From Thioclava dalianensis (lineage in GTDB: Bacteria > Pseudomonadota > Alphaproteobacteria > Rhodobacterales > Rhodobacteraceae): DNA of 64,000 bases. The translations under genes and the position numbers were made by a program. The stretch spans positions 1 to 64,000 of the forward strand of contig NZ_JHEH01000006.1 in NCBI RefSeq assembly GCF_000715505.1, written 5' to 3'. Below, one piece after another: positions 3,353 to 57,410 of the stretch. The notes under the pieces were generated by a model. It did not search any database and had not been told where the DNA came from. It saw only the letters and a program-made list of their open reading frames with translations. The first letter of the stretch is position 1; each line of letters starts with the position of its first letter.

Positions 3353-4365
3353 CAGATATAATCCGCCAATGTCAGCCGCGAGAGGCGTCCGGTCAGGGTG
3401 TAGAGCGTTTCAAGCTGGGTCGTCATCGCCTCAAGCGCGGAGGCCGTTTCATAAGGATCGGCGGCGACAAGCCCGTTGCGTGCGATTTGTAGCGCCGTGC
3501 CCTCGGCCGCGTTGCGCGTTGCCGCATCCGCGACCCGTCCTTGGTGCGCCCCAATATCGGCCACCAGAGATGTAAGTGTATAATTCCCCGTCATAATCGC
3601 CTCGCCTGAGGCGGCTGCAAGCTGACCGCGCATGGCCGCGTTTCCGGCAAAGAGCCCATCTGCGGTCAGGGCCGCGATTGCAAATCCCTTGAGCACATCG
3701 CGCAGCCGGGGGTCGGCGGCGGAACTGGTGATCTGTGTGACCTCCGAGTCAGCGACGCGATAGGATACGGGTTGGCTGTCATCGCCCTGATAGGCCGTAT
3801 CGAGAAACCCGCCGCCGCCGGGTGGCGCATCGAACCAGTCCGAGACCCGCGAAACGACTTCCTGCGCGGTCGTGGCGCCCGCGATCTCAGTTGTGAGGGC
3901 TGCAAGCAAGTCATCCGGCGTCGGAAGGGGGGCCGTGTCGCGCGCGATGCCGCTAAAGAGATACTGTCCCGCCGCGTTCGTGTTGAGCGCGGAGATCACT
4001 GTGTCAAACATCACCGAAGCGTCCGCAACGGCGGCGTCGACAAGGGTCGGGTTCGCCTCGTTCGAGGAGGACAGGATCGTTGCGCCGATCTGATCCGAGA
4101 GGGATTGGATCGTCCCCAGTGAGGCCTGCATCGTGTCGAGCGCGAGCGTGGCCTCGGATGTGACGATCTTGTAGCTCTCTAACATCGTCAGGCTGCGGTT
4201 GATGCCGGAAAACGCGCTGAAATCGCCCCCCAGCGCCGCGCCGGTGTCTTTCTTTTCCCCGGTCACCACCTCCTCTGAGAGCCGGTTCAGGGTCGATTTG
4301 AGCTGTGCGTTGTGATGGCGCAGCGTGTAGTTTTGCGCCATGTCACCGATGGAAAGATAAGCCAT
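3352..4365 (-). CDS. flgL: flagellar hook-associated protein 3 (FlgL)
   Basis: Second hook-filament junction protein, joining FlgK to the flagellin filament outside the cell. The 337-residue protein is flagellin-like at both ends: an N-terminal helix with LRHHNAQLKSTLNRLSEEV and a C-terminal helix with ASALEAMTTQLETLYTLTGR, between which lies a less conserved loop region. GGAGCTG lies seven bases before the start, inside the end of flgK. Position after flgK and the flagellin-like ends identify it as FlgL. The sequence is divergent from enterobacterial FlgL, as usual in Rhodobacterales. Confidence 0.87.
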   Translation of the reverse strand: MAYLSIGDMAQNYTLRHHNAQLKSTLNRLSEEVVTGEKKDTGAALGGDFSAFSGINRSLTMLESYKIVTSEATLALDTMQASLGTIQSLSDQIGATILSSSNEANPTLVDAAVADASVMFDTVISALNTNAAGQYLFSGIARDTAPLPTPDDLLAALTTEIAGATTAQEVVSRVSDWFDAPPGGGGFLDTAYQGDDSQPVSYRVADSEVTQITSSAADPRLRDVLKGFAIAALTADGLFAGNAAMRGQLAAASGEAIMTGNYTLTSLVADIGAHQGRVADAATRNAAEGTALQIARNGLVAADPYETASALEAMTTQLETLYTLTGRLSRLTLADYI

Positions 4366-4367
4366 GT

Positions 4368-5825
4368 TTACAGCTCCAGAAGCGTTTTGATCAGCGTGTC
4401 GATGGTCGAGATGACGCGCGCATTGGCGGCGTAGGATTGCTCGACCGCCATCAGCATTTGCAACTCGTTGTCGGTGTCGACGCCGTCGGCGAGAACCAAT
4501 TCATTCAGCGATTGATGGCGGGCGCTTGTGAAACTTTGGGTCAGCTCTGCGGTTTGGCGCTTGCTTGAGTAGTCCGATATCAGGGCTGCCGCGAGATCGG
4601 AGGCATTGTGTTGGCCGCCGCCGAAGCTCCCCGAGGCCGGAATCCGCTCGGCATGAAGCGCATCGGTGAGCGCGGAGAGGATTTGCGGATTGCCCGAAGT
4701 GCCGGGGCTTGCCGCGCCCAGGCCATCGCGCAAGTGCCACAGCGCGCCGCCTTGTTCTGGATCGGCGATCGGGTTGATCGAGATCCGTTTGGCAAGTCCG
4801 ACCGTGTCGAGCGGATCCACCGGGCCGCCCGCAATGGTGAACAGACCCGGATCGCCGGCGGGCAAGGTGGGATCAATCGCGGGATCCGAGAAGCGGTCGA
4901 TGAGATCGCGCGCAAAGCCGTCCAGTTGGGATTGCGCGCGCGGGGCCAGCTCATCGCGTATCGCAAACAGTGCGCCCAGGCTGCCGCCTCCCATCTGGCG
5001 GTCGTCCGAGGTCGACAGAGCGGTGCCCTTGAGGGACAGGCCGGACAGAGCACCCGACGCCTGTGTCATATCGGCGGTGATGATGCCTGCGCCGGAGAAG
5101 GTGATTTCCGCGGGATTGCCCTCGAGCAGAACGACACCGCCGGTGGTGTAGAGACTGATCTGTTGTTGATCGCGCTGAATTTGGCGGACCGGCACGATGG
5201 CGGAGAGTCGGTCGACCAGCACCTGTCTTTGGTCGAGCATCGCGCTGGCATCGCGTCCCGACGCATCTTGCGACAGGATCGTGGTGTTGAGCGCGTCAAT
5301 CTGGACGAGGGTCTCATTGAGCAGGCTGACCTGATCAGCGATCGCGTGATCGGCATCCATCCGGGCCTGCTGGATCGAAGAGCTGGTATCATTGAGATGG
5401 GTCGCAATGGCCGATGCGGCGTCGCGCACCGTGGAGAGCCGCGCCTCGCTGTCGGGACGGCTCGCAGCTTCGACCAGCGCGGCTTCGAGCGTGACGATCC
5501 GGGCCGATAACGAGCCGGGCATGTCCGGGTCGCCGATCCAGCCCTCCATATCCGCGAAGAAATCGCTGCGCAGACTTGCGTTTTGATCGGCGGCATCTGC
5601 CAGCCGCCGATCTTGCAGGACCGTCTCATTGGTGAGGCGTGCGATGCCGGAGACCTTCACGCCCGCACCGCCGCCTGCGAGCGTGCGCGTGGTCAGTTGC
5701 ACCTCGCGTCTTGCATAGCCTTCGGTCATTGCATTCGCCGTGTTGGAGGCCACGACCTCGGCCATCCGGGAGGCGGCGTTCAGCCCGGACATTGCGTTGG
5801 AAAGCGAGCGCGTGATGCTCATCAT
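4368..5825 (-). CDS. flgK: flagellar hook-associated protein 1 (FlgK)
   Basis: First hook-filament junction protein. The 485-residue protein starts with the rod/hook-type motif SNAMSGLNAASRMAEVVASNTANAMTEGY split over residues 8-36 (ANTA/SNTAN box). It has a long helical region near 90-200 and the conserved C-terminal pattern DTDNELQMLMAVEQSYAANAR that also occurs in hook and rod proteins. Two ATG codons lie side by side; AGGAGG is better spaced from the second (5822), so the true protein may be one residue shorter. Two bases separate its stop from flgL. Confidence 0.92.
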   Translation of the reverse strand: MMSITRSLSNAMSGLNAASRMAEVVASNTANAMTEGYARREVQLTTRTLAGGGAGVKVSGIARLTNETVLQDRRLADAADQNASLRSDFFADMEGWIGDPDMPGSLSARIVTLEAALVEAASRPDSEARLSTVRDAASAIATHLNDTSSSIQQARMDADHAIADQVSLLNETLVQIDALNTTILSQDASGRDASAMLDQRQVLVDRLSAIVPVRQIQRDQQQISLYTTGGVVLLEGNPAEITFSGAGIITADMTQASGALSGLSLKGTALSTSDDRQMGGGSLGALFAIRDELAPRAQSQLDGFARDLIDRFSDPAIDPTLPAGDPGLFTIAGGPVDPLDTVGLAKRISINPIADPEQGGALWHLRDGLGAASPGTSGNPQILSALTDALHAERIPASGSFGGGQHNASDLAAALISDYSSKRQTAELTQSFTSARHQSLNELVLADGVDTDNELQMLMAVEQSYAANARVISTIDTLIKTLLEL

Positions 5826-8845: not shown

Positions 8846-9447
8846 AAGCCTTGACGGCCACTGATGCCGGGCTGATCGGCTGCACTCGCTGCGGGCGCGT
8901 CTGGCCGCACGCGCATGTCGAATGCGAGCGCTGCGGCGCGCGGCTGCATCGGGTCGATCGGCACGGGCTGCAGGCGGTCTGGGCGTGGTGGCTGGCGGGG
9001 CTTATCTTCTACATTCCGGCCAATGTCTTCCCGATGCTGGTCACGGATACATTCGGTAGCTTGCAGAAGAACACCATCGTGGGCGGTGCCCTGGAGTTGT
9101 GGAAACACCACAATTACGGCGTTGCGGCCATCGTTTTCGTGGCATCCATCATGATCCCGATTGGAAAATTCATCGCCGTCGCCTATTTGGCAATCATCGT
9201 AGGAAATGAGAAACGCAAGGGCGGGCATCCCCATCTTTTGCTTCTGGAGGTGGTGGAATTCATTGGGCGCTGGTCGATGATCGACGTGTTCGTCGTGGCG
9301 ATCCTCTCGGCCTTGGTTCAGCTTGGCTATGTTGCGTCCATCCATCCCGGCCCGGCTGCGGCCTCTTTCGCGCTATCGGTTGCATTCACAATGCTATCCG
9401 CCCAGAGTTTCGACCCTCGCCTGATCTGGCGTGGCACAAAAGAGTGA
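8821..9447 (+). CDS. PqiA-like membrane protein, C-terminal half
   Basis: Second PqiA-type unit, 208 residues. It again opens with a zinc ribbon (CTRC and CERC near residues 21 and 36), followed by four hydrophobic segments, including LAGLIFYIPANVFPMLV with the conserved YxPANxFP pattern of PqiA. LLEVVEFIGRWSMIDVFVVA is also a PqiA signature. The ATG at 8821 lies inside the preceding gene. The frame is open further upstream, but that part has no family similarity. Its stop is four bases before the ATG of pqiB. The two halves probably work as a pair with the MCE protein. Confidence 0.87.
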   Translation: MGRHIAEIEALTATDAGLIGCTRCGRVWPHAHVECERCGARLHRVDRHGLQAVWAWWLAGLIFYIPANVFPMLVTDTFGSLQKNTIVGGALELWKHHNYGVAAIVFVASIMIPIGKFIAVAYLAIIVGNEKRKGGHPHLLLLEVVEFIGRWSMIDVFVVAILSALVQLGYVASIHPGPAAASFALSVAFTMLSAQSFDPRLIWRGTKE

Positions 9448-9451
9448 GCAC

Positions 9452-11476
9452 ATGACCGAAACGCCCGATCCTGGCCCGGCCGAACTGAAAACCTCCGCAG
9501 CAAAGCGCCCGATCTGGTCGCGACTTTCGATCATCTGGATCGTTCCGCTGCTGGCGCTTGTCGTGACGCTTGGCGTTGCGTGGAAGTCCTTTGCCGACCG
9601 GGGCGAGCTTATCCATATCGATTTCAAGGATGCGACCGGGGTTGAGGTCGGCACGCCGCTGAAATTCCGCGATGTGCAGGTCGGCAAGGTTGAATCCGTG
9701 GGGTTCACATCGGATCTGACGCAAGTGCGCCTGGGTGTTCGGGTCGATAATGATGTCGCGCCCTATGTGGATAATGATGCGAAGTTCTGGCTCGTGCGGC
9801 CTGAAGTGTCGGCGCGCGGGATCGAGAATCTCGGGACGGTGCTGTCGGGCACCTATCTTGAGGGATTCTGGACCAACAAACCCTCCGGTGCGCGGACCCA
9901 GTTCACGGGTCTTGAACGGCCGCCGCTGTCTCCTGATCCCAGCAAGGGTACGATCATTGAGCTGCGCGCGCAGGATGCGGGCGGCATCGTCGATGGCGCG
10001 CCGATCCTCTATCACGGGATCACGGTGGGACATCTGCAAAATCTACGTCTCAATAAGGACGGATCTGGGGTGATCGTCGATGCGTTCATCGAGGCGCCGC
10101 ATAACAAGCTGCTCACGACGCAGACCCGGTTCTGGAACACCTCCGGCTTCTCGGTGAAATTCGACACGTCGGGCCTGAGCCTCGATGTGCGTTCGCTTGC
10201 GACGCTTGTGCAGGGCGGGGTGGAGTTCGACACGTTCACCAGTGGCGGCGATGTCGTGAAAAATCAGGACACGTTCCGTCTCTATGACAGTCAGGACGTG
10301 GCGAAGAACTCTGTCTTCGAGTCCGATCAGGTCGATCCGCCGCGCTATACGCTGCTGTTTGACGATCCTGTCCAAGGGCTCGAAGTGGGCTCTAAAGTGC
10401 AGGTCCGCGGTGTTGAGGCCGGCGAGGTTACGGCGCTTGCGATCAAGGTCAGCACCGATTCCACCGGGCAAAGCTATGCCCAGCAGCAGGTCACCATCGC
10501 ACTGTCGCCCGATCGGCTGGGCCTTGCGCGCGATTCCGATGAGAAGCAGACGACGCAGTTCATCGAGAGTCAGGTCGTGAACGGTCTGCGGGCGCGCATC
10601 GCCTCCGTCGGGCTTCTGGGCGGCACCAAGATCATCGAGCTGACCGATGTGCCCGATCAGCCCAACGAGAAGATGAATCTCGACGCAAAGCCCTTCCCGA
10701 CGATTCCGACGGCCCCGCCCACGGCGAACGACCTGTCGCAATCGGCCAAAGGCGTGTTCAACCGGATCGAGGGTCTGCCGATCGAGAAGCTGATGAATTC
10801 CGCGATCCGTACGCTCGACTCGATTTCGGCGGTGGCGGAGAACGAGAATACCCGCAAAGTGCCTGAAGAACTCTCGGGGCTGCTCAACCAGCTTCGCAGC
10901 TTCGCGACCGATCTCAACGACAAGGGCGCTGCCGACAAGACGGTTGCGGCGCTGGATGGCGTGACCGATGCGGCCAGCTCTGTGCTCGAAGAGATCGACG
11001 GGCTGCATGAGACCTTGGCCTCCGCCGACAAGGCCGCGCAGGCGATCGCGGATATGCCGCTTGGCGATATCGGCGATAAGATCGACACGATCCTCGCCGA
11101 TATCAACGGCTTGCTCAACAAACCCGGCACGCAGGATCTGCCGCAATCGCTCAACCAGACGCTGGAACAGACAGCGGCAATTCTTGAGCAACTGCGCAAG
11201 GCTGGGGCTGCGGATAAGCTGAACCAGACGCTGGCGGCGACGCAGGACGCGGCGGCTTCCGTTTCGAAAGCGGCGGATCGCCTGCCTGAGCTGACGCAGC
11301 GCCTCGACACGCTGGTGGCGCAGGCGCAGGGTCTGGTCTCGACCTACGGGCAGGGATCGAACTTCTCGAATGAGACGCTGACCACACTGCGCGAACTGCG
11401 CCGCTCTATCACCGATATCGGCGCCGTGGCGCGGATGATCGAACGCAACCCGCGCGCCTTTATCCTAGGCCGCTGA
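9452..11476 (+). CDS. pqiB: PqiB-type MCE domain protein (intermembrane lipid transport)
   Basis: Periplasm-spanning MCE protein thought to form a channel for lipids between inner and outer membranes. The 674-residue protein has a cytoplasmic start, one membrane helix (IWIVPLLALVVTLGVAW) and three MCE repeats, visible by their opening pattern: DATGVEVGTPLKFRDVQVGKV, then GIVDGAPILYHGITVGHL, then GLEVGSKVQVRGVEAGEV. From about residue 420 it becomes alpha-helical and coiled-coil-like, as in PqiB. A GTG at 9431 would add seven residues. I prefer the ATG at 9452, four bases after the pqiA2 stop and behind AAGAGTGAG. Confidence 0.93.
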   Translation: MTETPDPGPAELKTSAAKRPIWSRLSIIWIVPLLALVVTLGVAWKSFADRGELIHIDFKDATGVEVGTPLKFRDVQVGKVESVGFTSDLTQVRLGVRVDNDVAPYVDNDAKFWLVRPEVSARGIENLGTVLSGTYLEGFWTNKPSGARTQFTGLERPPLSPDPSKGTIIELRAQDAGGIVDGAPILYHGITVGHLQNLRLNKDGSGVIVDAFIEAPHNKLLTTQTRFWNTSGFSVKFDTSGLSLDVRSLATLVQGGVEFDTFTSGGDVVKNQDTFRLYDSQDVAKNSVFESDQVDPPRYTLLFDDPVQGLEVGSKVQVRGVEAGEVTALAIKVSTDSTGQSYAQQQVTIALSPDRLGLARDSDEKQTTQFIESQVVNGLRARIASVGLLGGTKIIELTDVPDQPNEKMNLDAKPFPTIPTAPPTANDLSQSAKGVFNRIEGLPIEKLMNSAIRTLDSISAVAENENTRKVPEELSGLLNQLRSFATDLNDKGAADKTVAALDGVTDAASSVLEEIDGLHETLASADKAAQAIADMPLGDIGDKIDTILADINGLLNKPGTQDLPQSLNQTLEQTAAILEQLRKAGAADKLNQTLAATQDAAASVSKAADRLPELTQRLDTLVAQAQGLVSTYGQGSNFSNETLTTLRELRRSITDIGAVARMIERNPRAFILGR

Positions 11477-11488
11477 CCGGAGATGCCG

Positions 11489-12076
11489 ATGACCTTGCTG
11501 CGACTGATCCCGTTTCCGCTGTGCCTTTTGGCCCTTGCGGCCTGCTCCGATCCCGAGAAGATCGCGCGCTATCCGATCACGCCGCCTGCGGTGAGCAAGG
11601 ATATGGCGAACCGTCTTGGCACCGCCGAGCTGCGCCAGATCTCCTTGCCCGATTATGCCTCGTCGCAGGAGATCTCGTTTCAGACCCCGGATGGTGCGCT
11701 GCGCTCCAATCCGAACAACCTGTGGGCCGATGATCCCGCGCGGTCGATGACGCTGGCGCTGGCGCGGCAGATTTCCGAGATGTCGGGCGCGACCGTACTC
11801 TCGGATCCTTGGCCGCTGAGCGACCCGCCGCGGCGCCGGATTGACGTGCGCGTGGAGCAGCTATTGCCGGGCGCGGATCAGATGCTGCATGTGTCAGGGC
11901 TTTACGTGGTCTCGCCGACCGGCTTTGATGCGGGCGGCGACACGGTGCGGCGGTTCAACTTCACCGTGCCCATCGCGGGCGCCGAGGCAGATGGGGGCGC
12001 TCAGCCCGCCGCGATCGTGGCGGCCCAAGGGAAAGCGGTCACCGAATTGGCCCGGCGCATCGCGGGTCTGAGATAG
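11489..12076 (+). CDS. pqiC: PqiC-like outer-membrane lipoprotein
   Basis: ABC-type transport auxiliary lipoprotein of the PqiC/YmbA family (DUF330), expected to hold the PqiB tube at the outer membrane. The 195 residues begin with a lipoprotein signal ending LLALAACSD, where the cysteine is the lipidation site. A conserved central part follows, with RRIDVRVEQLLPGADQMLHVSGLYVV. An ATG at 11483 is also possible; GGAG at 11479-11482 is best spaced from the ATG at 11489. It is the last gene of the pqi operon and meets the flavin reductase gene tail to tail with three bases between. Confidence 0.87.
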   Translation: MTLLRLIPFPLCLLALAACSDPEKIARYPITPPAVSKDMANRLGTAELRQISLPDYASSQEISFQTPDGALRSNPNNLWADDPARSMTLALARQISEMSGATVLSDPWPLSDPPRRRIDVRVEQLLPGADQMLHVSGLYVVSPTGFDAGGDTVRRFNFTVPIAGAEADGGAQPAAIVAAQGKAVTELARRIAGLR

Positions 12077-12690: not shown

Positions 12691-13158
12691 TTAGCGGTCC
12701 AGTCGGATCAAGCGATCCAACGAGATCGCCCCGGGGCCTTTTGCGATCACGATCAGAAAGCAACTGGCCCAGAGCCCATGTGTGACCCAGGCTTCGGGGA
12801 AGACGAAGGTCTGAATGACCAGCGTCATGATCAGCAGCGCCAATGCGGAAAGCCGCGTGAACAGACCCAAAACCAGCAGGATTGGCATCAGATGTTCGGC
12901 GAAGGTTGCAGCGACTGCCGCGATATGGGGCGGCACCAAGGGCAGAGCGTAGATCTGCTCGAACAGCGTGAAGGTCGAGTCCTTGATGGACAACCCTTCG
13001 ACTTTCGTGCGCCCCGATTGCCAGAAGACAACTGCGGGAAAAATGCGCGCCGCGAGCAAGATCACGCTGTCGGGGATATGCCCCGTGAGCTCAGAAATGC
13101 CTGAATAGAGGCGATATAGTCTCGGTTGAAGCGGTGCTTCGAGGTTTTGCTGGGTCAT
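12691..13158 (-). CDS. bufD: DoxX family membrane protein of the bufferin cluster
   Basis: Integral membrane protein of the DoxX family, 155 residues with four hydrophobic segments (SVILLAARIFPAVVFW, AAVAATFAEHLMPILLVLGL, ALALLIMTLVIQTFVF, THGLWASCFLIVIA). The pattern FxxGRTK and a membrane-embedded glutamate-histidine pair (AEHLMP) are visible. DoxX genes commonly close MNIO-type RiPP operons, where their biochemical role is not settled. The ATG at 13158 overlaps the bufC stop as ATGA. The open frame continues upstream to 13716 only as an antisense-like artefact over bufC. The symbol follows bufferin operon usage and is inferred from context. Confidence 0.85.
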   Translation of the reverse strand: MTQQNLEAPLQPRLYRLYSGISELTGHIPDSVILLAARIFPAVVFWQSGRTKVEGLSIKDSTFTLFEQIYALPLVPPHIAAVAATFAEHLMPILLVLGLFTRLSALALLIMTLVIQTFVFPEAWVTHGLWASCFLIVIAKGPGAISLDRLIRLDR

Positions 13159-13910
13159 TCCGGTCTCCCTTGCGAAATGGCTGTGATGAGGTCGTAACGG
13201 ATCAACAAGGTTAGCGCCTGTGTGAGATCGAGATCGCTCCCGGCAGCCGCGCAGGCCGCGCCAAGGGGGGTATCGGATAGAAGCGCTTCGATCAGGCGGG
13301 CGGTGGCAGGCGGAATCACAGTTGTGATCACATCGAACAGACCCTGCCGTGCGACCAACACCACCTCGGAAGTCCAGTCTTCCGCAGCGGGCGGCGCGGC
13401 CGCGCCGGGCTGTTGCGAGATCCAAAGGCTGCCCGCTGGCGTCGCGGCCCAAAGGGTCTGCACCGAGGGATGCAGTCTCAGGTAAGAGGTTTCGGCGATT
13501 TGGGTCAGCTGTGAGCTCTCCACGGGGACGAGATCTGCGGCATGATAGGCCCGGCTGCGCGCCCATTCGATCCGCGCCACGTCGGGCAGGTAGCTCAGAT
13601 GCGAAAACGTCTCTATTCCGCCTAAAAAATTGGGAAACTCTACACCCCATTCTGTCAGGATCGGAGTCCGAGGAGGGTGGCGCTCGATATAAAGATGCGC
13701 CACGCCTGAAAAACACTCCTCGCCCAGCAGCCGCGTCACCGCCGGGTAGTGACGCTGCAACGCTTGCGCCAGACCATGGGCCACGTTGTTGCGATAGACG
13801 TTGAACCGTCGCGTCAGTTCTTCGGGCGCTTGGGTGTGCGCACCGGGGGGCAGCGCGGTGTCGCGCAGCGCCGATTGAAATGCTTGGGCAAACTCACGAT
13901 GCGAGGGCAT
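13155..13910 (-). CDS. bufC: BufC/HvfC-like protein (DUF2063), partner of the MNIO enzyme
   Basis: DUF2063 protein (annotated elsewhere as putative DNA-binding domain). In bufferin and HvfABC systems it works as the partner that lets the MNIO enzyme act on its precursor peptide. The 251 residues start with [12 protein letters not shown] and the family signature [33 protein letters not shown] split over residues 36-68, then [12 protein letters not shown] and [17 protein letters not shown]. The C-terminal half is the variable domain. Start and end overlap neighbours: its ATG lies 17 bases inside bufB, and its TGA overlaps bufD. Confidence 0.92.
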
Positions 13911-14733
13911 GGCGTGCGTCCTCCAGGATAGCCTCGGCGCGAGACGCCTCGGTCATGAGCGTCGCGAAGTCGGGCACATCATTGTCCCATTCCACAAGGC
14001 TGGGGCGCGGGCCGTATTCTGTGACTGTTTCGGCGAAAAGACCCCAAACAGGCTCGCTGACCTCGCGGCCATGGGAATCAATCAAGAGCGGTCCAGAGGG
14101 CAGCTCTTCGGTCTCGTGACCGGCCAGATGGATCTCTCCTACCGCTTCGATCGGGAAGGCGCGCAGGTAGGCGCGCGGATCCGTGCGATGGTTCACGCAG
14201 GAGACGAAGACATTGTTCACGTCGAGCAGCAAACCACAGCCGGTCCGCCTTGCGATCTGGGCGAGGAAATCGGTCTCGGGAATGTCGGATTGCACGAAGG
14301 TGAGGTAGGTCGCCGGGTTTTCAAGCAGCATCTTGCGTCCAAGAGCCTCCTGCAACTGATCGATGTGATCACAAACGATATCGAGTGTCTCATCCGTATA
14401 GGGCAGGGGCAGAAGATCGTGCATCCATTCGCCGCCATGGCTGGCCCAAGCCAGATGCTCGGAGAAACTTTCGGGCTGATAGCGGTCGCATAGGCTGCGC
14501 AGCCGCGCCAAATGCGTCTTGTCCAGCGGATCGGCGCCCCCGATTGACAGGCCGACGCCATGGATCGACAGGGCATAATCGGCGCGCAGACGCTCGAGCA
14601 TCGCATGGGGCATCCCACCCGCACCCATGTAGTTCTCCGCATGCACTTCGAAGAAGCCAAGCGGCGGTTTCGTTTCTATTACGGCGGGAAAGTGCTCGGG
14701 CTTGAACCCGAGGCCAGCATTCGTCGGTAACAT
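13894..14733 (-). CDS. bufB: MNIO (DUF692) multinuclear iron oxidase, bufferin maturation
   Basis: DUF692 TIM-barrel enzyme of the multinuclear non-heme iron oxidative family, which modifies cysteines of RiPP precursors. The 279 residues carry the expected metal-ligand segments: [53 protein letters not shown] and LLIDSHG, ending with PSLVEWDND. The start is behind GGGAGGCGCAG. By analogy with characterised bufferin systems it converts cysteines of the upstream peptide to thiooxazole-type groups that bind copper; this activity is inferred, not read. The 54-base gap to bufA holds a strong hairpin. Confidence 0.94.
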
Positions 14734-14756
14734 CTGCGCCTCCCAGAGCTGAATTT

Positions 14757-14780
14757 CGGGGCGGACATAGGCCCGCCCCG
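14757..14780 (-). promoter_or_regulatory. intergenic hairpin between bufA and bufB
   Basis: Perfect 8-bp GC-rich inverted repeat, CGGGGCGG / CCGCCCCG, with an 8-base loop, between the precursor gene and the enzyme genes. No U-run follows, so it is not a classic terminator. Such hairpins often protect the upstream message or thin out downstream transcription, giving more peptide than enzyme. Confidence 0.55.
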
Positions 14781-14787
14781 AGAGCGA

Positions 14788-15069
14788 TCACATTTTGATC
14801 GGCTCGAGCGAGCCCATGCCTTTGGGCGTCTTGATCTCCTCGCAGGTGCCGGCAGGAACGAGTTTCCACGCATTGCCCTGATAGTCGCTGGTCGAGGTGC
14901 CCGCGCAGGTCGTGCCGGGGCCGGCCGCGCAGTCGTTCTGACCTGCCATCGAGACGCCGTAGCACTTCTCCATCGCCTTCGACATGTCGTCGGCTTTTGC
15001 GGCGGTTGCGACACCCAGTGCACAGGTGAGTGCTGCGGCGATACCCAGAGTGGTTTCGGTCTTACTCAT
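14788..15069 (-). CDS. bufA: bufferin precursor peptide (DUF2282)
   Basis: DUF2282 precursor, 93 residues. A Sec signal peptide (residues 1-26, ending ATAAKA) precedes a core with four cysteines: C36 in EKCYGVS, C47 in NDCAAG, C55 in TTCAG and C76 in GTCEEI. This spacing with [11 protein letters not shown] is the family hallmark. Bufferins keep a cleavable signal peptide, are modified by the MNIO enzyme and are exported to the periplasm, where they bind copper. The start at 15069 follows GGGAGTTTGAT; the longer frame to 15333 runs into the divergent promoter region. First gene of bufA-bufB-bufC-bufD. Confidence 0.94.
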
Positions 15070-15116: not shown

Positions 15117-15143
15117 ATTCGCAGCCGCTCACCGATGCGTTAC
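15117..15143 (-). promoter_or_regulatory. ECF-type promoter of the bufferin operon
   Basis: GTAACG (15143-15138 on the minus strand), 15 bases, GCGAAT (15122-15117), 48 bases upstream of the bufA ATG. The same two elements with the same spacing occur before the divergent sigma gene, which makes a shared ECF sigma factor likely. Confidence 0.7.
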
Positions 15144-15249: not shown

Positions 15250-15276
15250 GTAACGAAGCGCGCCTCGCACGCGAAG
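15250..15276 (+). promoter_or_regulatory. ECF-type promoter of the sigma / anti-sigma operon
   Basis: GTAACG (15250-15255), 15 bases, GCGAAG (15271-15276), ending ten bases before the sigma factor ATG. It matches the bufA promoter in both elements and spacing. Transcription would start close to the ATG, leaving a very short leader, so the exact start needs mapping. Confidence 0.62.
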
Positions 15277-15286
15277 GGACGGTAAG

Positions 15287-15836
15287 ATGCACGATCGGCA
15301 AGCAGACTGGAGCGCGTTGCTGCGCGCCGCCAATGGCGGAGATACGCGCGCATATAGGGCGTTCCTATCTGCCGTGACTCCGGTTTTGCGTGGTGTTGTG
15401 CGGGCGCGTGGTGCGGGTCTGCCGGAAGATGAATGCGAAGATGTCGTGCAAGAGGTTCTGTTGGCGATCCATCTGAAACGTCATACGTGGCGCGAGGATG
15501 AGCCCGCCGCGCCGTGGTGCTACGCCATTGCACGCTACAAGACGGTGGATGCGTTTCGAAAGCGTGGTCGCCGGGTGCATGTGCCGATTGAAGATTTCGC
15601 GGAGGTTCTGCCTGCGGCCCCCCGAGGCCGACCCGACAGAGCGCCGCGATATCGAGCGTGTGATCGAGCACCTTGACCCACGGGCGGCGCAAGTGGTGCG
15701 TGCGATCGGGCTGGAGGGCCAGTCGATTGCCGAAACCGGCGCGCGGATGGAAATGACCGAAGGCGCGGTGCGGGTGATGCTGCATCGCAGTCTCAAGAAA
15801 CTGGCCGAGCTGAGAGAAAGGCTGATCGAGATATGA
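15287..15836 (+). pseudogene. ECF sigma factor (SigF-like), frame broken by one base in a C6 run
   Basis: ECF sigma factor expected to drive the bufferin operon and itself. Region 2 is read from 15287 ([54 protein letters not shown]). Region 4 continues in the next frame to 15836 (TERRDIERVIEHLDPRAAQVV, GQSIAETGARMEMTEGAVRV). The frames join at six C at 15618-15623: with five C the reading is PAAPEADPTERRD and the protein would be 182 residues, the normal length. As given, the first frame ends at 15676 after 129 residues without region 4. The change may be a sequencing error, a real mutation, phase variation or programmed +1 slippage. The end overlaps nrsF as ATGA, which fits an intact gene. 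Confidence 0.82.
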
Positions 15837-16462
15837 AGACGGAAGATCTGCTGGATATGCTGGGCGAGGATCCCCTTGTCGAACCGCGCAGCGAAGCGGT
15901 GCTTTGGCGTTGGCTGATCCCGGCGGTGTGTTTCTCCGGGGCGGTCATGATGTTTGTCCTTGGCGTTCGATTTCCGCTGTCGCAGACCCTTATGGATCCT
16001 GAAGTGGTGCCCAAGGTCTTGCTGCCGCTCGCGCTCGGTCTGATCGCGGCGGTGCTGGCGCTGCGGATGGCGCGTCCGCTTGCGCGGCGCCCGCTTGGAT
16101 GGTTGTGTGTGGCGCCGGTGCTTGCGCTGGCTCTGTTGCTTTACGCCTATGTCAGCACGCCCGAGCAGTCCCGGATGATGGCGTTCACCGGCAAGACGAT
16201 TTTCCCGTGCCTAATCTCTATTCCGTCGCTGTCGGCCCCGCTTCTTGCGGCCTTCCTGACGACGCTGCGGCGTGGCGCGGTGATGCGGCCCATGCGCGCC
16301 GGTCTGATCGCGGGTCTGGCCGCCGGGGGGCTCGGGACGACGATCTACGCGCTTCACTGCACCGAGGACAGCCCGCTCTTCTACGTCACGTGGTACGGGG
16401 CTGGGATTGCCATCACGGCGCTGGCCGGGGCGTTGATCGGCTCGAAACTTCTGCGTTGGTGA
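15833..16462 (+). CDS. nrsF: NrsF-type anti-sigma factor (DUF1109), six membrane spans
   Basis: Membrane anti-sigma factor that holds its ECF sigma factor until metal stress releases it. The 209 residues start with a short cytoplasmic segment (MKTEDLLDMLGEDPLVEP), the expected sigma-binding part, followed by six hydrophobic segments. The C-terminal half carries the family signature IYALHCTEDSPLFYVTWYG. Cysteines C126 (FPCLISIPSLSAP) and C176 (LHCTEDS) are 50 residues apart, the same distance as the two metal-sensing cysteines known in Caulobacter NrsF. Its ATG overlaps the sigma gene stop. It abuts the convergent cysQ-like gene with no gap. Confidence 0.9.
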   Translation: MKTEDLLDMLGEDPLVEPRSEAVLWRWLIPAVCFSGAVMMFVLGVRFPLSQTLMDPEVVPKVLLPLALGLIAAVLALRMARPLARRPLGWLCVAPVLALALLLYAYVSTPEQSRMMAFTGKTIFPCLISIPSLSAPLLAAFLTTLRRGAVMRPMRAGLIAGLAAGGLGTTIYALHCTEDSPLFYVTWYGAGIAITALAGALIGSKLLRW

Positions 16463-25465: not shown

Positions 25466-26020
25466 TTAACGTGGGCTGCGTTTGGCCAAAATACGCTGAA
25501 GTGTACGCCGATGCATATTTAAACGGCGTGCGGTTTCCGAAACGTTGCGATCACAGAGCTCGTAGACCCTTTGAATATGCTCCCAGCGCACGCGATCCGC
25601 GCTCATCGGATTTTCCGGGGGCGGCGGTGCTTCTTCGCCCCGTGCCAGCAACGCATTTGTGATATCGGTCGCATCGGCGGGCTTGGCAAGATAATCGGTG
25701 GCGCCCATTTTGACAGCGGCAACGGCGGTCGCGATTGCGCCATATCCGGTCAGGACGACAATTCGGGCATCAGCGCGTTTTTCGCGCAGCAATTCGACAA
25801 CATCAAGCCCGCTGCCGTCTTCAAGCCGCAGGTCGATCACCGCATAGGCGGGCGCCTGCGATTGGACGATTGCACGGCCAGCCGCGACGGTTTCCGCAGT
25901 CTGCGGCGCAAATCCGCGTTTCTCCATCGCGCGCGCCAAACGAGTCAGGAAAGAGATGTCATCATCGACCAGCAAAAGCGAGCGGTCCGGCCCAAGTTCA
26001 GCTGTCAAATCATCTGCCAT
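25466..26020 (-). CDS. regA: response regulator RegA (PrrA/ActR)
   Basis: DNA-binding regulator of the RegB-RegA redox system controlling respiration, nitrogen and carbon fixation, and photosynthesis genes where present. The 184 residues have a receiver domain with the acidic pocket LLLVDDDIS, phospho-acceptor D63 in VIDLRLEDGSG, VVLTGYGAI and the lysine in YLAKPA. A proline-rich linker (EEAPPPPENP) follows. The C-terminal FIS-type helix-turn-helix NVSETARRLNMHRRTLQRIL is nearly invariant in the family. 53 bases after senC. Confidence 0.97.
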   Translation of the reverse strand: MADDLTAELGPDRSLLLVDDDISFLTRLARAMEKRGFAPQTAETVAAGRAIVQSQAPAYAVIDLRLEDGSGLDVVELLREKRADARIVVLTGYGAIATAVAAVKMGATDYLAKPADATDITNALLARGEEAPPPPENPMSADRVRWEHIQRVYELCDRNVSETARRLNMHRRTLQRILAKRSPR

Positions 26021-26073
26021 TCGTTTCCCCAGGTTAAGCTTCCGCTGTTATGTAGGAGCTCACACCCTCAGGG

Positions 26074-26718
26074 TCAATTTCCACTGCCCGAGCTTTTCCA
26101 TGCATCGATGAAACACGCCATGCGGTCGGCCATTTGCTCCGGTTTGGCATCGCGGTTGAAATATTCGACGAAGCCGACTTTGGGAAGTACCAGATAGCTT
26201 TGCGTGGAATGATCAATCAGCGTGTAGGGGTCGCCTGGGTTTTGCACCTTGTAATAGGTCCGGTATTCTTTTGAGACCTTGCTGATCTGCTCGGGCGTGC
26301 CCGTCAGTCCGATCATCTTCGGATGCATGATATCGGTGAATTCTCGCAGCACCTCTGGCGTATCGCGCGCCGGATCAACTGAAATGAAGATCGGCGTGGC
26401 CGAATAGCCCTTGGCTTCTAGCTGCTCGATGGCGTTTGCATTGCGCGCATTGTCGAGCGGGCAGACATCGGGGCAATACGTGTAGCCGAAATAGAGCAGG
26501 CTCGGCTCGGTGATCACGTCTTTATCCGTGACCTCACGGCCGTTTTCGTCGGTCAGCGTGAAGGGGCCACCGATCTGGCCCGCGCCACCCGCCACGACGC
26601 TTGAGCGGCATTTCGCGAAGACATCTTCAGACTGGCGTGCCGAGATCGAGAGCCACGTGGCACCCAGCCCGAGTATGACGACAGCGCTTGCTGCAAAGGC
26701 GATTGTTGCGGTTTTCAT
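26074..26718 (-). CDS. senC: SCO1/SenC/PrrC family copper protein
   Basis: Membrane-anchored thioredoxin-fold protein of the SCO family. It delivers copper to cytochrome oxidase and is linked to Reg signalling. The 214 residues start with a membrane helix (TIAFAASAVVILGLGATWLS). The copper motif is YFGYTYCPDVCPLDNARN, with CxxxC, and the later histidine is in LIDHSTQSYLVLP. The ATG at 26718 has GGAG eight bases upstream; nine extra codons of open frame are unlikely. It diverges from regB over 105 bases, as in Rhodobacter. Confidence 0.95.
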   Translation of the reverse strand: MKTATIAFAASAVVILGLGATWLSISARQSEDVFAKCRSSVVAGGAGQIGGPFTLTDENGREVTDKDVITEPSLLYFGYTYCPDVCPLDNARNANAIEQLEAKGYSATPIFISVDPARDTPEVLREFTDIMHPKMIGLTGTPEQISKVSKEYRTYYKVQNPGDPYTLIDHSTQSYLVLPKVGFVEYFNRDAKPEQMADRMACFIDAWKSSGSGN

Positions 26719-26823
26719 CGGTTGTGCTCCTCGTTCACGCTCCATTGATCGCGCGAGAGCGGCGAAGTATCAATGCAGGCGCATGTTTTTTATCTCCATG
26801 CGCTGAAACGACGCGGAGGCACC

Positions 26824-28203
26824 ATGCCACGGCACAAAGCCCAGCCCGGACCGCCCGAGACCCATCAGGATTGGGTCCGGTTGCGGACATTGATCTATCT
26901 GCGCTGGATTGCGATCGCCGGGCAGCTTGCGGCGATCCTGATTGCTTACTCGTTCTTCAATATCGCGCTGGACCTGCCGCTGTGTTTTGCCACGGTCGGG
27001 GCGGCAGTGGCAGCGAACCTGATCGCGATCTTTTCTTTTCCCGACACCAAGCGGCTCACCCAGCCGGAGGCCGCGGCGACACTGATGTTCGACATGGCGC
27101 AGCTTGCGATCTTGTTGGCGATCACGGGCGGGCTGAGCAATCCCTTCGCGTTGCTTATCCTCGTGCCTGTGACGATTGCCGCGACTGCGCTGAAACGCTC
27201 GGCCACGATTGCGCTGGGGCTGTCGACGATGGTGATGATCTCGCTGGTGGCGCTGGTCTATCTGCCGCTGATGACGCGCGACGGCGAGGTTATAAATATG
27301 CCGCCGGTATTTGAGTTCGGCTATTGGCTGGCGATCGTGATCGGCGTGGCGTTTCTGGGGGCCTACGCGCATACGGTTTCAAACGAGAACCGCTCGATGA
27401 GCGAGGCGCTGCGGGCCACTCAGCTTGCGCTGGCGCGCGAGCAAAAGCTCACGGATCTGGGGGGCGTGGTCGCTGCGGCGGCGCATGAGCTGGGCACGCC
27501 GCTGGCGACGATCAAGCTGGTTTCGGCTGAGCTCGCCGATGAGCTGGGGGATCGCGAAGATCTGCGCGACGACGCTTTGTTGATCCGTGAGCAGGCGGAT
27601 CGATGCCGCGATATTCTCCATTCCATGGGGCGCGCGGGCAAAGACGATCTGCATCTGCGCAGCGCACCCCTGATGGCTGTGCTGCGCGAGGCCGCCGACC
27701 CCCATCAAGAGCGCGGGATCGACATTCGCTTTGAGGGCCACCCGATCGAGGAAGGCGCAGAGCGTCAGCCGACCATCTACCGCTATCCCGAGCTGATCCA
27801 CGCGCTGCGCAATTTCGTGCAGAACGCCGTCGATTTCGCGCGCACCACCGTTTGGATCGAGGCCGAGTGGGATGCCGAGATGATCCGTGTGCGCGTCAGC
27901 GATGACGGTCGCGGCTATCCGAGCAATGTGCTCAGCCGGATCGGCGATCCCTATCTTCAGCCGCGCGCAAACGCCTCGGAGCGGAAGGAATATGACGGGA
28001 TGGGTCTGGGTGTTTTCATCGCCAAGACTCTGCTGGAGCGCACCGGCGCCCAGCTTGCCTTTTTCAACGGAGATGCGAGCTACGCCCCGCTCACCCAAGA
28101 GCCGCAACGCTCGGGCGCCGTGGTCGAAGTGAGCTGGCCCGCCGAGCGGATCCTTGCGCCCGAAAGCGCGGCTCTGGGTCTGAATGCGCCGATCACGGGG
28201 TAA
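26824..28203 (+). CDS. regB: redox sensor histidine kinase RegB (PrrB/ActS)
   Basis: Membrane kinase that phosphorylates RegA in response to redox state. The 459 residues have six hydrophobic segments in the first 200. The quinone-binding loop GGLSNPF lies at 102-108 between membrane segments. The H-box AAAAHELGTPLATIKL has phospho-acceptor H221. C261 in QADRCRDILHSMGR is the redox-active cysteine known from Rhodobacter RegB. ATP-binding boxes are NFVQNAVDFA, VSDDGRGYP and GMGLGVFIAKTLLERTGA. Start at 26824 follows GGAGGCACC; the frame is open 17 codons further. Confidence 0.97.
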   Translation: MPRHKAQPGPPETHQDWVRLRTLIYLRWIAIAGQLAAILIAYSFFNIALDLPLCFATVGAAVAANLIAIFSFPDTKRLTQPEAAATLMFDMAQLAILLAITGGLSNPFALLILVPVTIAATALKRSATIALGLSTMVMISLVALVYLPLMTRDGEVINMPPVFEFGYWLAIVIGVAFLGAYAHTVSNENRSMSEALRATQLALAREQKLTDLGGVVAAAAHELGTPLATIKLVSAELADELGDREDLRDDALLIREQADRCRDILHSMGRAGKDDLHLRSAPLMAVLREAADPHQERGIDIRFEGHPIEEGAERQPTIYRYPELIHALRNFVQNAVDFARTTVWIEAEWDAEMIRVRVSDDGRGYPSNVLSRIGDPYLQPRANASERKEYDGMGLGVFIAKTLLERTGAQLAFFNGDASYAPLTQEPQRSGAVVEVSWPAERILAPESAALGLNAPITG

Positions 28204-45359: not shown

Positions 45360-46019
45360 TCAGCCACCCGTGGCGACGAGCTGCCAGTTCGGATCGTCAC
45401 TGCCCATCCTGCGTGCGAAGGTCCAGATGTCACGCTGTTTGCGCGCAACTTTGGGATCGCCCTCGACGATCTCGCCCTGCGCGTTTCGCGCGACCGAGAT
45501 CAGCTCGCCGCCAAAGCGAACGGTGATTTCGGAGTCATTGGTGGCGTGATCGAAATCAGCCCCGCTGAGCACCAGCTCGCGCAGGCCGAGAAATTCGGCA
45601 TGAACGTCAAGCCCCTGTTCCTTGCGCGCGGCGACGGCGCCTTCGAAAGCCTCATAGACCTCTGCAGAGAGGAAGGGCTTGATCTGTTCGATATCGCCGC
45701 GCTCGAAGGCCATCAGGATCATCTCATAAGCGCCGCGTGCGCCCTTGAGAAACTCCGAGACCGAAAATTGCGGCTCGACCCGTTTCATCGCCGAAAGCGC
45801 AATCGCCGCAGTCGACCCCTCGTCCACATGATCCACGATATCGGGATCCGGGCCGCCTTCGATCACTTCGAAATCACGCTTGGCTTGCGGGATCGGTTCT
45901 TCGAGCGGCGTTGCCGGTTTTTCGAAACCCTCACGCGTGCCGAGAACATTTTTCAGCTTGAAAATCAGAAAGATCGCGATGGCCGCGAGAACAATTAACT
46001 GGATGACGGCACCGGACAT
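45360..46019 (-). CDS. Tim44/TimA domain protein
   Basis: Membrane-anchored protein of the Tim44-like family, 219 residues; alphaproteobacterial members are relatives of mitochondrial Tim44. An N-terminal membrane helix (IQLIVLAAIAIFLIFKLKNVLG) leads to an acidic linker. The Tim44-like domain includes FSVSEFLKGARGAYEMILMAFERGD and the end RDIWTFARRMGSDDPNWQLVATGG. First gene of a minus-strand set with mltA and smr, divergent from fxsA over 121 bases. Function in bacteria is not established. Confidence 0.92.
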   Translation of the reverse strand: MSGAVIQLIVLAAIAIFLIFKLKNVLGTREGFEKPATPLEEPIPQAKRDFEVIEGGPDPDIVDHVDEGSTAAIALSAMKRVEPQFSVSEFLKGARGAYEMILMAFERGDIEQIKPFLSAEVYEAFEGAVAARKEQGLDVHAEFLGLRELVLSGADFDHATNDSEITVRFGGELISVARNAQGEIVEGDPKVARKQRDIWTFARRMGSDDPNWQLVATGG

Positions 46020-46140
46020 CGAAACCCCTGTGAAACGAGCTGCGTTTGTGTATCGCGTAGATGGTACCTATGTAAGCTAGCGACAGGATCAAGTCCACCT
46101 GCGCGGGTTAGCTGCCCGGCGAGCGATGAAAGAGGATGAC

Positions 46141-46656
46141 ATGTGGATTTTACTGGCCTTTTTGGCCGTCCCGCTGATCGAGATTGCGCTTTTTTTGAAA
46201 GTTGGCGGTTTGATCGGGCTGTGGCCGACCCTTGCGATCGTCGTGGTGACGGCGGTGCTGGGGACGGCTTTGGTGCGTCACGAGGGCGCACGTGCGCTCA
46301 ATGACCTGCGCCGCTCGCTCAATGAGCTGAGCGATCCGACGCGTCCGCTTGCGCATGGGGCGATGATTCTGGTCGCGGGGGTGTTGCTTCTGACACCGGG
46401 CTTTTTCACCGATACGCTTGGCCTGTTGCTGTTGATCCCGCGCGTGCGCGACTGGGTGATGCGGCACATGGCGAGCCGGGTCAAAGTGGCGCGTTTCGAG
46501 ATGGGCGGGCAGGCCGGTCCGGGCGGATCGCCCTATCCGCCGGGAGGCGCTCCACACCGTCCGCATGATCCCGGTGTGATCGATGCCGACGAGATCCCGG
46601 ATATGCCGCGCAGTGACCGACCGCGCAATGGCCCGTCTGGCTGGACGCGCGAATAG
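46141..46656 (+). CDS. fxsA: FxsA family membrane protein
   Basis: FxsA-family inner-membrane protein, 171 residues. In E. coli its overproduction relieves phage T7 exclusion by the F plasmid; the physiological role is unknown. The signature is LIEIALFLKVGGLIGLWPTL followed by VLGTALVRHEG and LLTPGFFTDTLGLLLLIPRVRDWV, with three to four membrane segments. The tail is glycine- and proline-rich. ATG 46141 follows AAAGAGG; five more codons are open upstream. A hairpin terminator separates it from secB. Confidence 0.92.
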   Translation: MWILLAFLAVPLIEIALFLKVGGLIGLWPTLAIVVVTAVLGTALVRHEGARALNDLRRSLNELSDPTRPLAHGAMILVAGVLLLTPGFFTDTLGLLLLIPRVRDWVMRHMASRVKVARFEMGGQAGPGGSPYPPGGAPHRPHDPGVIDADEIPDMPRSDRPRNGPSGWTRE

Positions 46657-56366: not shown

Positions 56367-57164
56367 TTAGGCCGCGAGCGACTCGGTCGATGAGAAGAAC
56401 ATCGCCTGACTGACCGCCGATTGCACCTGAGCCTCGGTATAGGGCTTGGTGATCAGGAAGGCCGGTTCAGGACGCTCGCCGGTCAACAGCCGCTCCGGGA
56501 AAGCCGTGATGAACACGACCGGAAGATCGTTGCCGAACTGCGCCAAAATATCGTTCACCGCATCGATGCCCGACGAATTGTCGGCCAGCTGGATGTCGGC
56601 AAGGATGAGATCGGGCTTTTCCTTCGCTGCCAGTTCCACAGCCTCGGTACGCGTGCGGGCAACCCCGGTGATGGTGTGGCCCATATCCTCGACGATGGCG
56701 CGAATATCCATCGCGATGATGGCTTCGTCCTCGATGATCATGATCTTGCCTGCAATCGAGGCTTCCATCTCGCGCAGGGCGATGTCGATCAGATCCTGCG
56801 CCTCGTCGGAATCGACTTGCATGATCGTCGCGATTTCCTCGATGCGGAATCCTTCGATCGAGTGCAACAGCAGCGCCTCACGCGTGTTGGGCGTCAGCGA
56901 GGCCATGTGATCCTGCGCGCTTGCGGACATACGGTTGTCAGGCTCACCCAGCGGCGACCCGGCTGAAGCCCAGACGAGGTGGAACGCATGGAACAAGCCC
57001 AGCTTGGGATCGTTGTCCTCGAAAGGTGACGTATCCTCGAGGATCGCCTCGAGCGTTGCTGCGGCAAAGCGATCGCCGCTGTCTTGGCTGCCGGTAAGGG
57101 CCCGCGCGTAGCGGCGCAGGTACGGAAGGTTGGCCCCGATGGTGCCGGCGATGTCTTCGGGCAT
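56367..57164 (-). CDS. phyR: general stress response regulator PhyR
   Basis: Anti-anti-sigma response regulator. When phosphorylated it binds NepR and frees the EcfG sigma factor. The 265 residues contain an N-terminal sigma-like domain (PYLRRYARALTGSQDSGDRF, NTREALLLHSIEGFRIEEIA) and a C-terminal receiver with IMIIEDEAIIAMDIRAIVE, phospho-acceptor D190 in DLILADIQLADNSSGIDAV, VVFITAFPERLL and ITKPY. The start at 57164 follows AAGGGGG; the frame upstream crosses the promoter. It is divergent from nepR, and an EcfG-type promoter lies in front. Confidence 0.97.
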   Translation of the reverse strand: MPEDIAGTIGANLPYLRRYARALTGSQDSGDRFAAATLEAILEDTSPFEDNDPKLGLFHAFHLVWASAGSPLGEPDNRMSASAQDHMASLTPNTREALLLHSIEGFRIEEIATIMQVDSDEAQDLIDIALREMEASIAGKIMIIEDEAIIAMDIRAIVEDMGHTITGVARTRTEAVELAAKEKPDLILADIQLADNSSGIDAVNDILAQFGNDLPVVFITAFPERLLTGERPEPAFLITKPYTEAQVQSAVSQAMFFSSTESLAA

Positions 57165-57189
57165 GAAAACCCCCTTTTGTCGTTTTTCG

Positions 57190-57215
57190 GGAACCAAACG
57201 TTCTGGCTCCGCGTT
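57190..57215 (+). promoter_or_regulatory. EcfG-type promoter of nepR-ecfG
   Basis: GGAAC (57190-57194), 17 bases, CGTT (57212-57215), matching the general-stress sigma consensus, 36 bases before the nepR start. It is the left-to-right reading of an 11-bp perfect inverted repeat, GGAACCAAACG / CGTTTGGTTCC. Confidence 0.85.
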
Positions 57216-57222
57216 TGGTTCC
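57197..57222 (-). promoter_or_regulatory. EcfG-type promoter of phyR, overlapping the nepR promoter
   Basis: On the minus strand GGAAC (57222-57218), 17 bases, CGTT (57200-57197). It uses the same inverted repeat as the nepR promoter, so the two promoters lie face to face on the same 33 bases. Confidence 0.85.
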
Positions 57223-57251
57223 GTGCAAAGTATGTGGGATCGGAAACCGGA

Positions 57252-57410
57252 ATGTATAGTGACATGGCTGAAGAAAAGTCCAAGTCCAGTATCAAAGATC
57301 AGATCAATGACAACCTGAAGCGCGTTTACGAACAAGCACTTCAAGAAGAGGTTCCTGATCGGTTCAAAGATCTTCTGGCACAGCTCAAGGCAAAGGAGGA
57401 CGGTAAATGA
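57252..57410 (+). CDS. nepR: anti-sigma factor NepR
   Basis: Small anti-sigma factor, 52 residues from ATG 57252 (48 from ATG 57264). It binds EcfG until phosphorylated PhyR takes it away. The core SIKDQINDNLKRVYEQALQE followed by EVPDRFKDLLAQLK is the typical two-helix NepR pattern. The end overlaps the ecfG start as ATGA, so anti-sigma and sigma are made in coupled amounts. Two ATG codons are possible, neither with a strong ribosome site. Confidence 0.93.
   Translation: MYSDMAEEKSKSSIKDQINDNLKRVYEQALQEEVPDRFKDLLAQLKAKEDGK

Follow-up and report, generated by a model that had tools for sequence, protein, structure and literature searches.

A Buf1-type bufferin cluster in Thioclava dalianensis with paired SigF-type promoter motifs and a sigF gene split over two reading frames

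Thioclava dalianensis very probably carries a Buf1 bufferin biosynthetic cluster (we put the probability at about 0.87), laid out like the Caulobacter genes CC3252-CC3257, and a thiooxazole and copper function is predicted for it by homology. The cluster lies in the stretch of 64,000 nucleotides that was analysed (contig NZ_JHEH01000006.1, positions 1 to 64,000; hereafter the window). Its genes, its cysteines, a pair of promoter motifs, their conservation and a frame break in the sigma factor gene sigF are all seen directly in the DNA. As it stands in the present sequence sigF is not intact, and it may not work. The architecture has already been published, and the frame change is its sole unusual feature. 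A first-pass annotation, which had read the locus as a complete bufferin-type cluster beside a sigma/anti-sigma pair, was right in kind but missed the split in the sigma gene.

Results

Organization of the bufABC-doxX cluster

Four genes, each with a proper start and stop, run on the minus strand: bufA (14788-15069), for a Buf1/DUF2282 precursor of 93 amino acids; bufB (13894-14733), for an MNIO (DUF692) enzyme of 279 amino acids; bufC (13155-13910), for a DUF2063 partner of 251 amino acids; and doxX (12691-13158), for a DoxX-family protein of 155 amino acids. The first-pass annotation had placed these four genes at 12691-15069, and its coordinates proved right. All four products matched the corresponding Pfam family far from chance: BufA with DUF2282 (PF10048, E 2.4e-26), BufB with MbnB_TglH_ChrH (PF05114, E 1.2e-106), BufC with DUF2063 over residues 7-96 (PF09836, E 1e-24) and the DoxX protein with DoxX (PF07681, E 6.6e-18). 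The description of the genes as tightly overlapped applies to bufB-bufC-doxX, with 17 bases shared by bufB and bufC and an ATGA overlap between bufC and doxX, but not to bufA, which ends 54 bases short of bufB.

The precursor has cysteines at positions 16, 36, 47, 55 and 76. C16 lies inside the putative signal peptide, called by eye from a hydrophobic stretch and an AKA site rather than with a predictor; the core that follows contains C36, C47, C55 and C76, as previously described for this 93-residue peptide.

Comparison with NCBIfam models placed BufB at 389.9 bits with MNIO_BufB, above its cut-off of 310, and at 239.6 bits with HvfB, below its cut-off of 360. BufA obtained 20.7 bits with BufA2, below the cut-off of 60 that would class it as Buf2, which is expected because it is a Buf1 precursor. 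BufC matched HvfC (RRE) over residues 9-217 with 50.6 bits and the DoxX protein matched HvfX with 53.1 bits, both under equivalog cut-offs (142 and 80, respectively) that belong to Hvf proteins. Among solved structures, those closest to BufB by sequence were 3bww, a DUF692 protein (E 2.3e-40), 8hci and MbnB proteins.

The genome (4,179,056 bases) contains one match each to PF05114, PF10048 and PF06532, the latter being the NrsF family, with bufB as the sole PF05114 (MNIO) match; among 14 control genomes, Caulobacter vibrioides has all three families. A plasmid search with the same DNA found no near copy: the eight records returned were partial, and the longest showed 75% identity over 19% of the query. 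Elsewhere in the window, at 9431-12076, a gene presumably for a large MlaD/PqiB-like protein is followed by one whose product matches PF03886 (E 4.3e-24), the family of ABC-type transport auxiliary lipoproteins. From a reading of the ORFs, we also take positions 25466-28203 to group a RegA/PrrA-like response regulator, a SenC/SCO copper chaperone and a RegB/PrrB-type sensor kinase.

Conservation among relatives

A profile scan of genome contigs yielded 539 loci with a BufB relative, of which the best 80 were taken, and a second genome search detected BufB in 39 of 61 genomes, counting that of the window itself, and added stretches from 15 others. From a group of 30 loci (L086-L115) the analysis drew on L086, the window's own, and it left aside a second BufB copy in G002. 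The comparison set contains 95 loci (the best 80 of 539 plus 15), with two pairs, L006 and L116, and L016 and L128, being the same DNA; all counts of loci and aligned rows below refer to this set unless stated otherwise. Within the genus, a BufB match was found in 13 of 15 relatives.

All four of bufA, bufB, bufC and doxX were found in 90 of the 95 loci, with one gene missing from each of the other five within the DNA stretch examined. Sigma and NrsF genes occurred together in 75 loci, 68 of which have them divergent and 7 in a common orientation; 18 loci had neither and two had one of them. One of these loci, L062, has a weak sigma match (20 bits) at a distance of about 3 kb from the NrsF one. 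The four core cysteines were kept in 113/113 aligned precursor rows, and 18 His/Asp/Glu positions of BufB were invariant in 96/96 rows; both counts include the window, tandem copies and the two loci present twice, and precursor stretches under 60 bits were excluded. The earlier claim that the enzyme has all expected metal-ligand segments agrees with this result insofar as it concerns conservation, which is what our comparison measures.

Second bufA matches in relatives' loci are tandem copies. Two tandem DUF2282 precursors precede a single MNIO gene in 18 of the best 80 of the 539 loci, mostly rhizobial (L035, L037-L042, L044, L045, L047, L050, L053, L056-L058, L063-L065), and tandem precursors are mentioned in the literature (PMC12452194).

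The anti-sigma gene nrsF (15833-16462, plus strand) is intact and encodes an NrsF-family protein of 209 amino acids, matching PF06532 with an E value of 1.2e-48 and reaching 83.8 bits with the NCBIfam AntiSigF_NrsF model, below its equivalog cut-off of 300. Two of its cysteines are conserved in the aligned rows, C126 in 76/76 and C176 in 75/76. Two conserved NrsF cysteines are tied to the signal response in Caulobacter (PMC3511200), and we took C126 and C176 to be their counterparts, the Caulobacter protein standing outside our alignment.

SigF-type promoter motifs precede both operons

The 217-base gap between bufA and sigF contains the SigF-type motif GTAACG-N16-CGAA twice, back to back, with one copy for each operon: at 15118-15143 (minus strand) for bufABC-doxX and at 15250-15275 (plus strand) for sigF-nrsF, the latter having its last base 12 positions before sigF begins. 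The sigma-F motif of Caulobacter is GTAACC-N16-CGAA, and like promoters have been mapped there upstream of sigF and of each of the two DUF2282 operons (PMC3511200). We found both motifs, at similar distances, in 11/11 close same-genus orthologues (L116-L126; BufB identity of 76-84%); two more distant clusters of the genus (L129 and L130) have the motif before bufA and lack the one before sigF. Across the comparison set (the best 80 of 539 loci plus 15), the motif stands before bufA in 42 of 95 rows from loci with a sigma gene and in 4 of 18 rows from loci without one, and before sigF in 41 of 77 rows; these counts include the window's row, tandem copies and repeats, and allow the spacing to vary by ±1 base. 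The reversed control motif gave 0/95, 0/18 and 2/77, respectively. Many relatives' loci, many rhizobial ones among them, do not have this exact form of the motif.

There was no enrichment of the motif across the genome, with four matches to the strict pattern against 10 for the reversed control and 11 against 36 for a relaxed one, so that the case for these promoters rests on their place, orientation and conservation. The higher control counts rule out a genome-wide promoter count as proof of a SigF regulon. The two strict matches outside the bufA-sigF locus fall inside ORFs, and we propose no regulon member beyond this locus; a spaced pattern ending in ATG, poorly chosen, gave a single, uninformative match in 16 genomes of the genus. 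A promoter match elsewhere in the genome, at L005 (G000:C28 near 8199), falls inside a putative EF-hand-like ORF and was taken as chance; this ORF stands together with genes for a possible multicopper oxidase and a putative response regulator. Overall, both operons carry SigF-type motifs that we predict to be promoters.

The sigF gene is split over two frames

On the plus strand, a first piece of sigF (15287-15676) contains the frame for region 2 and ends with a stop at 15676, having departed from the conserved frame at about 15620; a second piece (15618-15836), in another frame, contains region 4 and ends at an ATGA overlap with nrsF. The first matches Sigma70_r2 (E 2.6e-8) and positions 3-116 of NCBIfam PRK12512, and the second matches Sigma70_r4_2 (E 9.8e-12) and positions 115-178 of the same model. 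Since region 2 and region 4 do not share a frame, the present sequence does not show an intact ECF sigma gene, and the sigma/anti-sigma pair of the first-pass annotation holds for NrsF only.

Alignment to relatives places the frame change within the linker, where six C follow one another (15618-15623). In the 13 relatives aligned at this site there is no six-C run and the frame continues (13/13). In all 76 loci of relatives that have a gene of this kind (from the best 80 of 539 plus 15), a single frame runs through regions 2 and 4 across this junction, a figure that includes two loci counted twice, L062, and L027, which has a frame change of its own elsewhere in the gene. The latter locus, from Yoonia vestfoldensis SKA53, has its sigma gene (3904-4523, minus strand) split by an independent frame change within region 2; in L030, a close relative of L027, the gene is in one frame. 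A second partial frame was also present in doxX of L057, and none was seen in bufB, bufC or nrsF of the same loci at a detection level of at least 20 bits.

Both pieces of sigF are conserved in comparison with relatives. The dN/dS ratios against relatives were about 0.07-0.14 for the first piece (four of six rows) and 0.08-0.20 for the second (six rows), values that are rough because dS is near saturation; the first-piece rows against L119 and L124 were dropped as apparently misaligned (dN of 1.03 and 0.87, respectively). These low ratios imply that the break is either recent or an error.

Scans for frame changes flagged eight ORF pairs, then six, with the sigF pairs recurring at the same place against three genomes (G002, G005 and G009). 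Other flagged pairs, at 25848-26194, 45999-46653 and 56370-57291, correspond to antisense or upstream DNA, and the real genes there are in one frame; three minus-strand pairs within 15461-15991 were taken as shadows of sigF and nrsF. At about 56370-57188 on the minus strand lies a gene whose product we take to resemble a PhyR-type general stress regulator, with a sigma-like domain and a receiver. In the approximately 73 kb comparable with relatives, no frame change besides that of sigF was confirmed; one flagged pair, beyond the window at 145725-146337 of the joined contig, remains a candidate. The window has 16 runs of at least six G or C, including that of sigF. A search of the genome found no second close copy of sigF, the next best match having 35% identity (E 1e-8), and none of the papers listed by a literature search bears on the sigF gene of this locus.

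Discussion

The product of the cluster is most likely a periplasmic peptide that binds excess copper through thiooxazoles formed from its two middle cysteines. BufB, as an iron enzyme, and BufC, as the partner presenting the substrate, would convert C47 and C55 of BufA into thiooxazoles in the cytoplasm; the modified peptide would then be exported by Sec, its C36 and C76 would pair in a disulphide, and it would chelate excess copper in the periplasm, with DoxX acting as an accessory membrane protein. This scheme follows what is reported for Buf1 bufferins, in which the central cysteines are modified and the outer ones joined by a disulphide, and for bufferins as sequestering periplasmic copper via thiooxazoles (PMC12452194). 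In the ancestral circuit, NrsF would keep SigF at the membrane until metal on its two conserved cysteines freed it, and the freed SigF would fire both back-to-back promoters; Buf1 clusters with a sigma factor and NrsF are a published arrangement (PMC12452194). It is from homology that we infer the modification and the residues it affects, the metal, the export, how SigF is released and how the promoters are used. The earlier call of a bufferin-type cluster, probably for copper defence, is borne out by the family models, the gene order, the promoter pair and the published Caulobacter locus (PMC8224329). That annotation had also left the exact modification and metal as unknown, which is right for this organism, but for which thiooxazoles and copper are a strong prediction from homologues.

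It is improbable, in our view, that the cluster serves mainly a metal other than copper, such as cadmium, chromium, gold, silver or mercury, or is an oxidative-stress unit, although several observations point that way. The SigF regulon of Caulobacter answers chromate and cadmium (PMC3511200), a like cluster of Cupriavidus metallidurans rises with gold and silver as well as copper (PMC8224329), and some Buf1 domains are fused to MerC (PMC12452194); moreover, a sigF mutant is reportedly impaired against oxidative stress in stationary phase (PMC8224329), and a DoxX homologue has been linked to oxidative or sulphur stress (PMC12452194). Against this, the sigF::Tn5 mutant of Caulobacter grows poorly with copper, and the growth defect of the sigF mutant is seen with this metal and not with chromate or cadmium (PMC8224329). 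The corresponding Caulobacter genes also rise under copper in all conditions tested (PMC8224329), and bufferins are reported as copper-sequestering (PMC12452194). Two published results weigh against the main reading: in Caulobacter, loss of sigF or of the MNIO genes is reported to cause no sensitivity to chromium/chromate or cadmium (PMC3511200), and the like cluster of C. metallidurans CH34 reportedly had no effect on copper resistance, perhaps because other systems masked it (PMC8224329).

The break in sigF could be a mutation or a sequence error; the one assembly available fits both. We give even odds to an error of sequencing or assembly at the C run, which would make the locus a fully working Buf1-SigF-NrsF unit: the break coincides with the six-base run, nrsF and the pair of promoter motifs are intact, and the dN/dS of the two pieces, about 0.07-0.20, indicates that there has been no long decay. 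However, the lack of any other confirmed frame change in the compared 73 kb, despite 15 further runs of at least six G or C in the window, means that the sequence is not visibly error-rich. A real and recent loss of SigF, with bufABC-doxX and nrsF kept but uninducible or driven from another promoter, is a serious possibility to which we give somewhat less than an even chance. It would agree with the finding that no gene but sigF has a confirmed frame change in the DNA that was compared, with the absence of a close intact copy elsewhere in the genome and with the independent region 2 frame change that the same gene shows in L027; but the downstream and divergent genes show no decay, and error would explain the break equally well, also in L027. 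Seen more broadly, it is a tentative and rather unlikely idea that the break is a true mutation in a strain keeping the complete cluster and that, taken with L027, the switch is repeatedly lost earlier than the cluster. The overlap of the two frames at the C run, each conserved on its own side, might even suggest a recoding or slippage site tuning SigF output, but this is very improbable, the run being missing in the 13 relatives aligned at the site and such runs being common in the window.

If the sequence is right, the division of SigF between two frames implies that the cluster should be induced poorly or not at all, and copper induction should be lost or weak. Additionally, since nrsF begins within the last bases of the region 4 frame, a real break may cause nrsF translation to couple less well. 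A broken sigma gene, if real, would be a natural test of the need for SigF in this cluster, and the case illustrates how complete clusters called from gene lists can overlook a dead switch. The cluster adds a well-formed member to the large family of copper-binding modified peptides, and many Rhodobacteraceae loci retain the paired SigF-type motifs that have been described in Caulobacter.

Comparison with known systems

The closest parallel is CC3252-CC3257 of Caulobacter crescentus, which comprises nrsF, sigF and genes for DUF2282, DUF692, DUF2063 and DoxX proteins (PMC3511200). In both, the six gene families adjoin and sigF-nrsF stands beside the DUF2282 operon, a likeness drawn by family and without protein alignment, and the same type of promoter motif precedes sigF and the DUF2282 operon (PMC3511200). 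Unlike the Caulobacter gene, sigF in the present T. dalianensis sequence is in two frames, and the single matches to PF05114 and PF10048 indicate that this genome has no second operon of the CC2905-CC2907 type.

More distant likenesses are found in the GIG operon of C. metallidurans and Legionella pneumophila, which answers gold and copper and for which DUF2282 is mentioned (PMC5413113), a resemblance by description and in hosts different from T. dalianensis. HvfABC/oxazolin and fontiphorin-type captophorins are also thiooxazole peptides made by MNIO enzymes and linked to copper, and a 2026 paper widens this chemistry to related clusters (PMC13097082); oxazolin-type precursors, however, bear EGKCG motifs (PMC12452194) instead of the DUF2282 domain found in T. 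dalianensis. Published Buf1 clusters with a sigma factor and NrsF have the same DUF2282 precursor, with a signal peptide and four cysteines, and the same MNIO, DUF2063 and DoxX proteins; the core is the same as that of T. dalianensis (PMC12452194), and only the broken sigma gene sets the T. dalianensis cluster apart.
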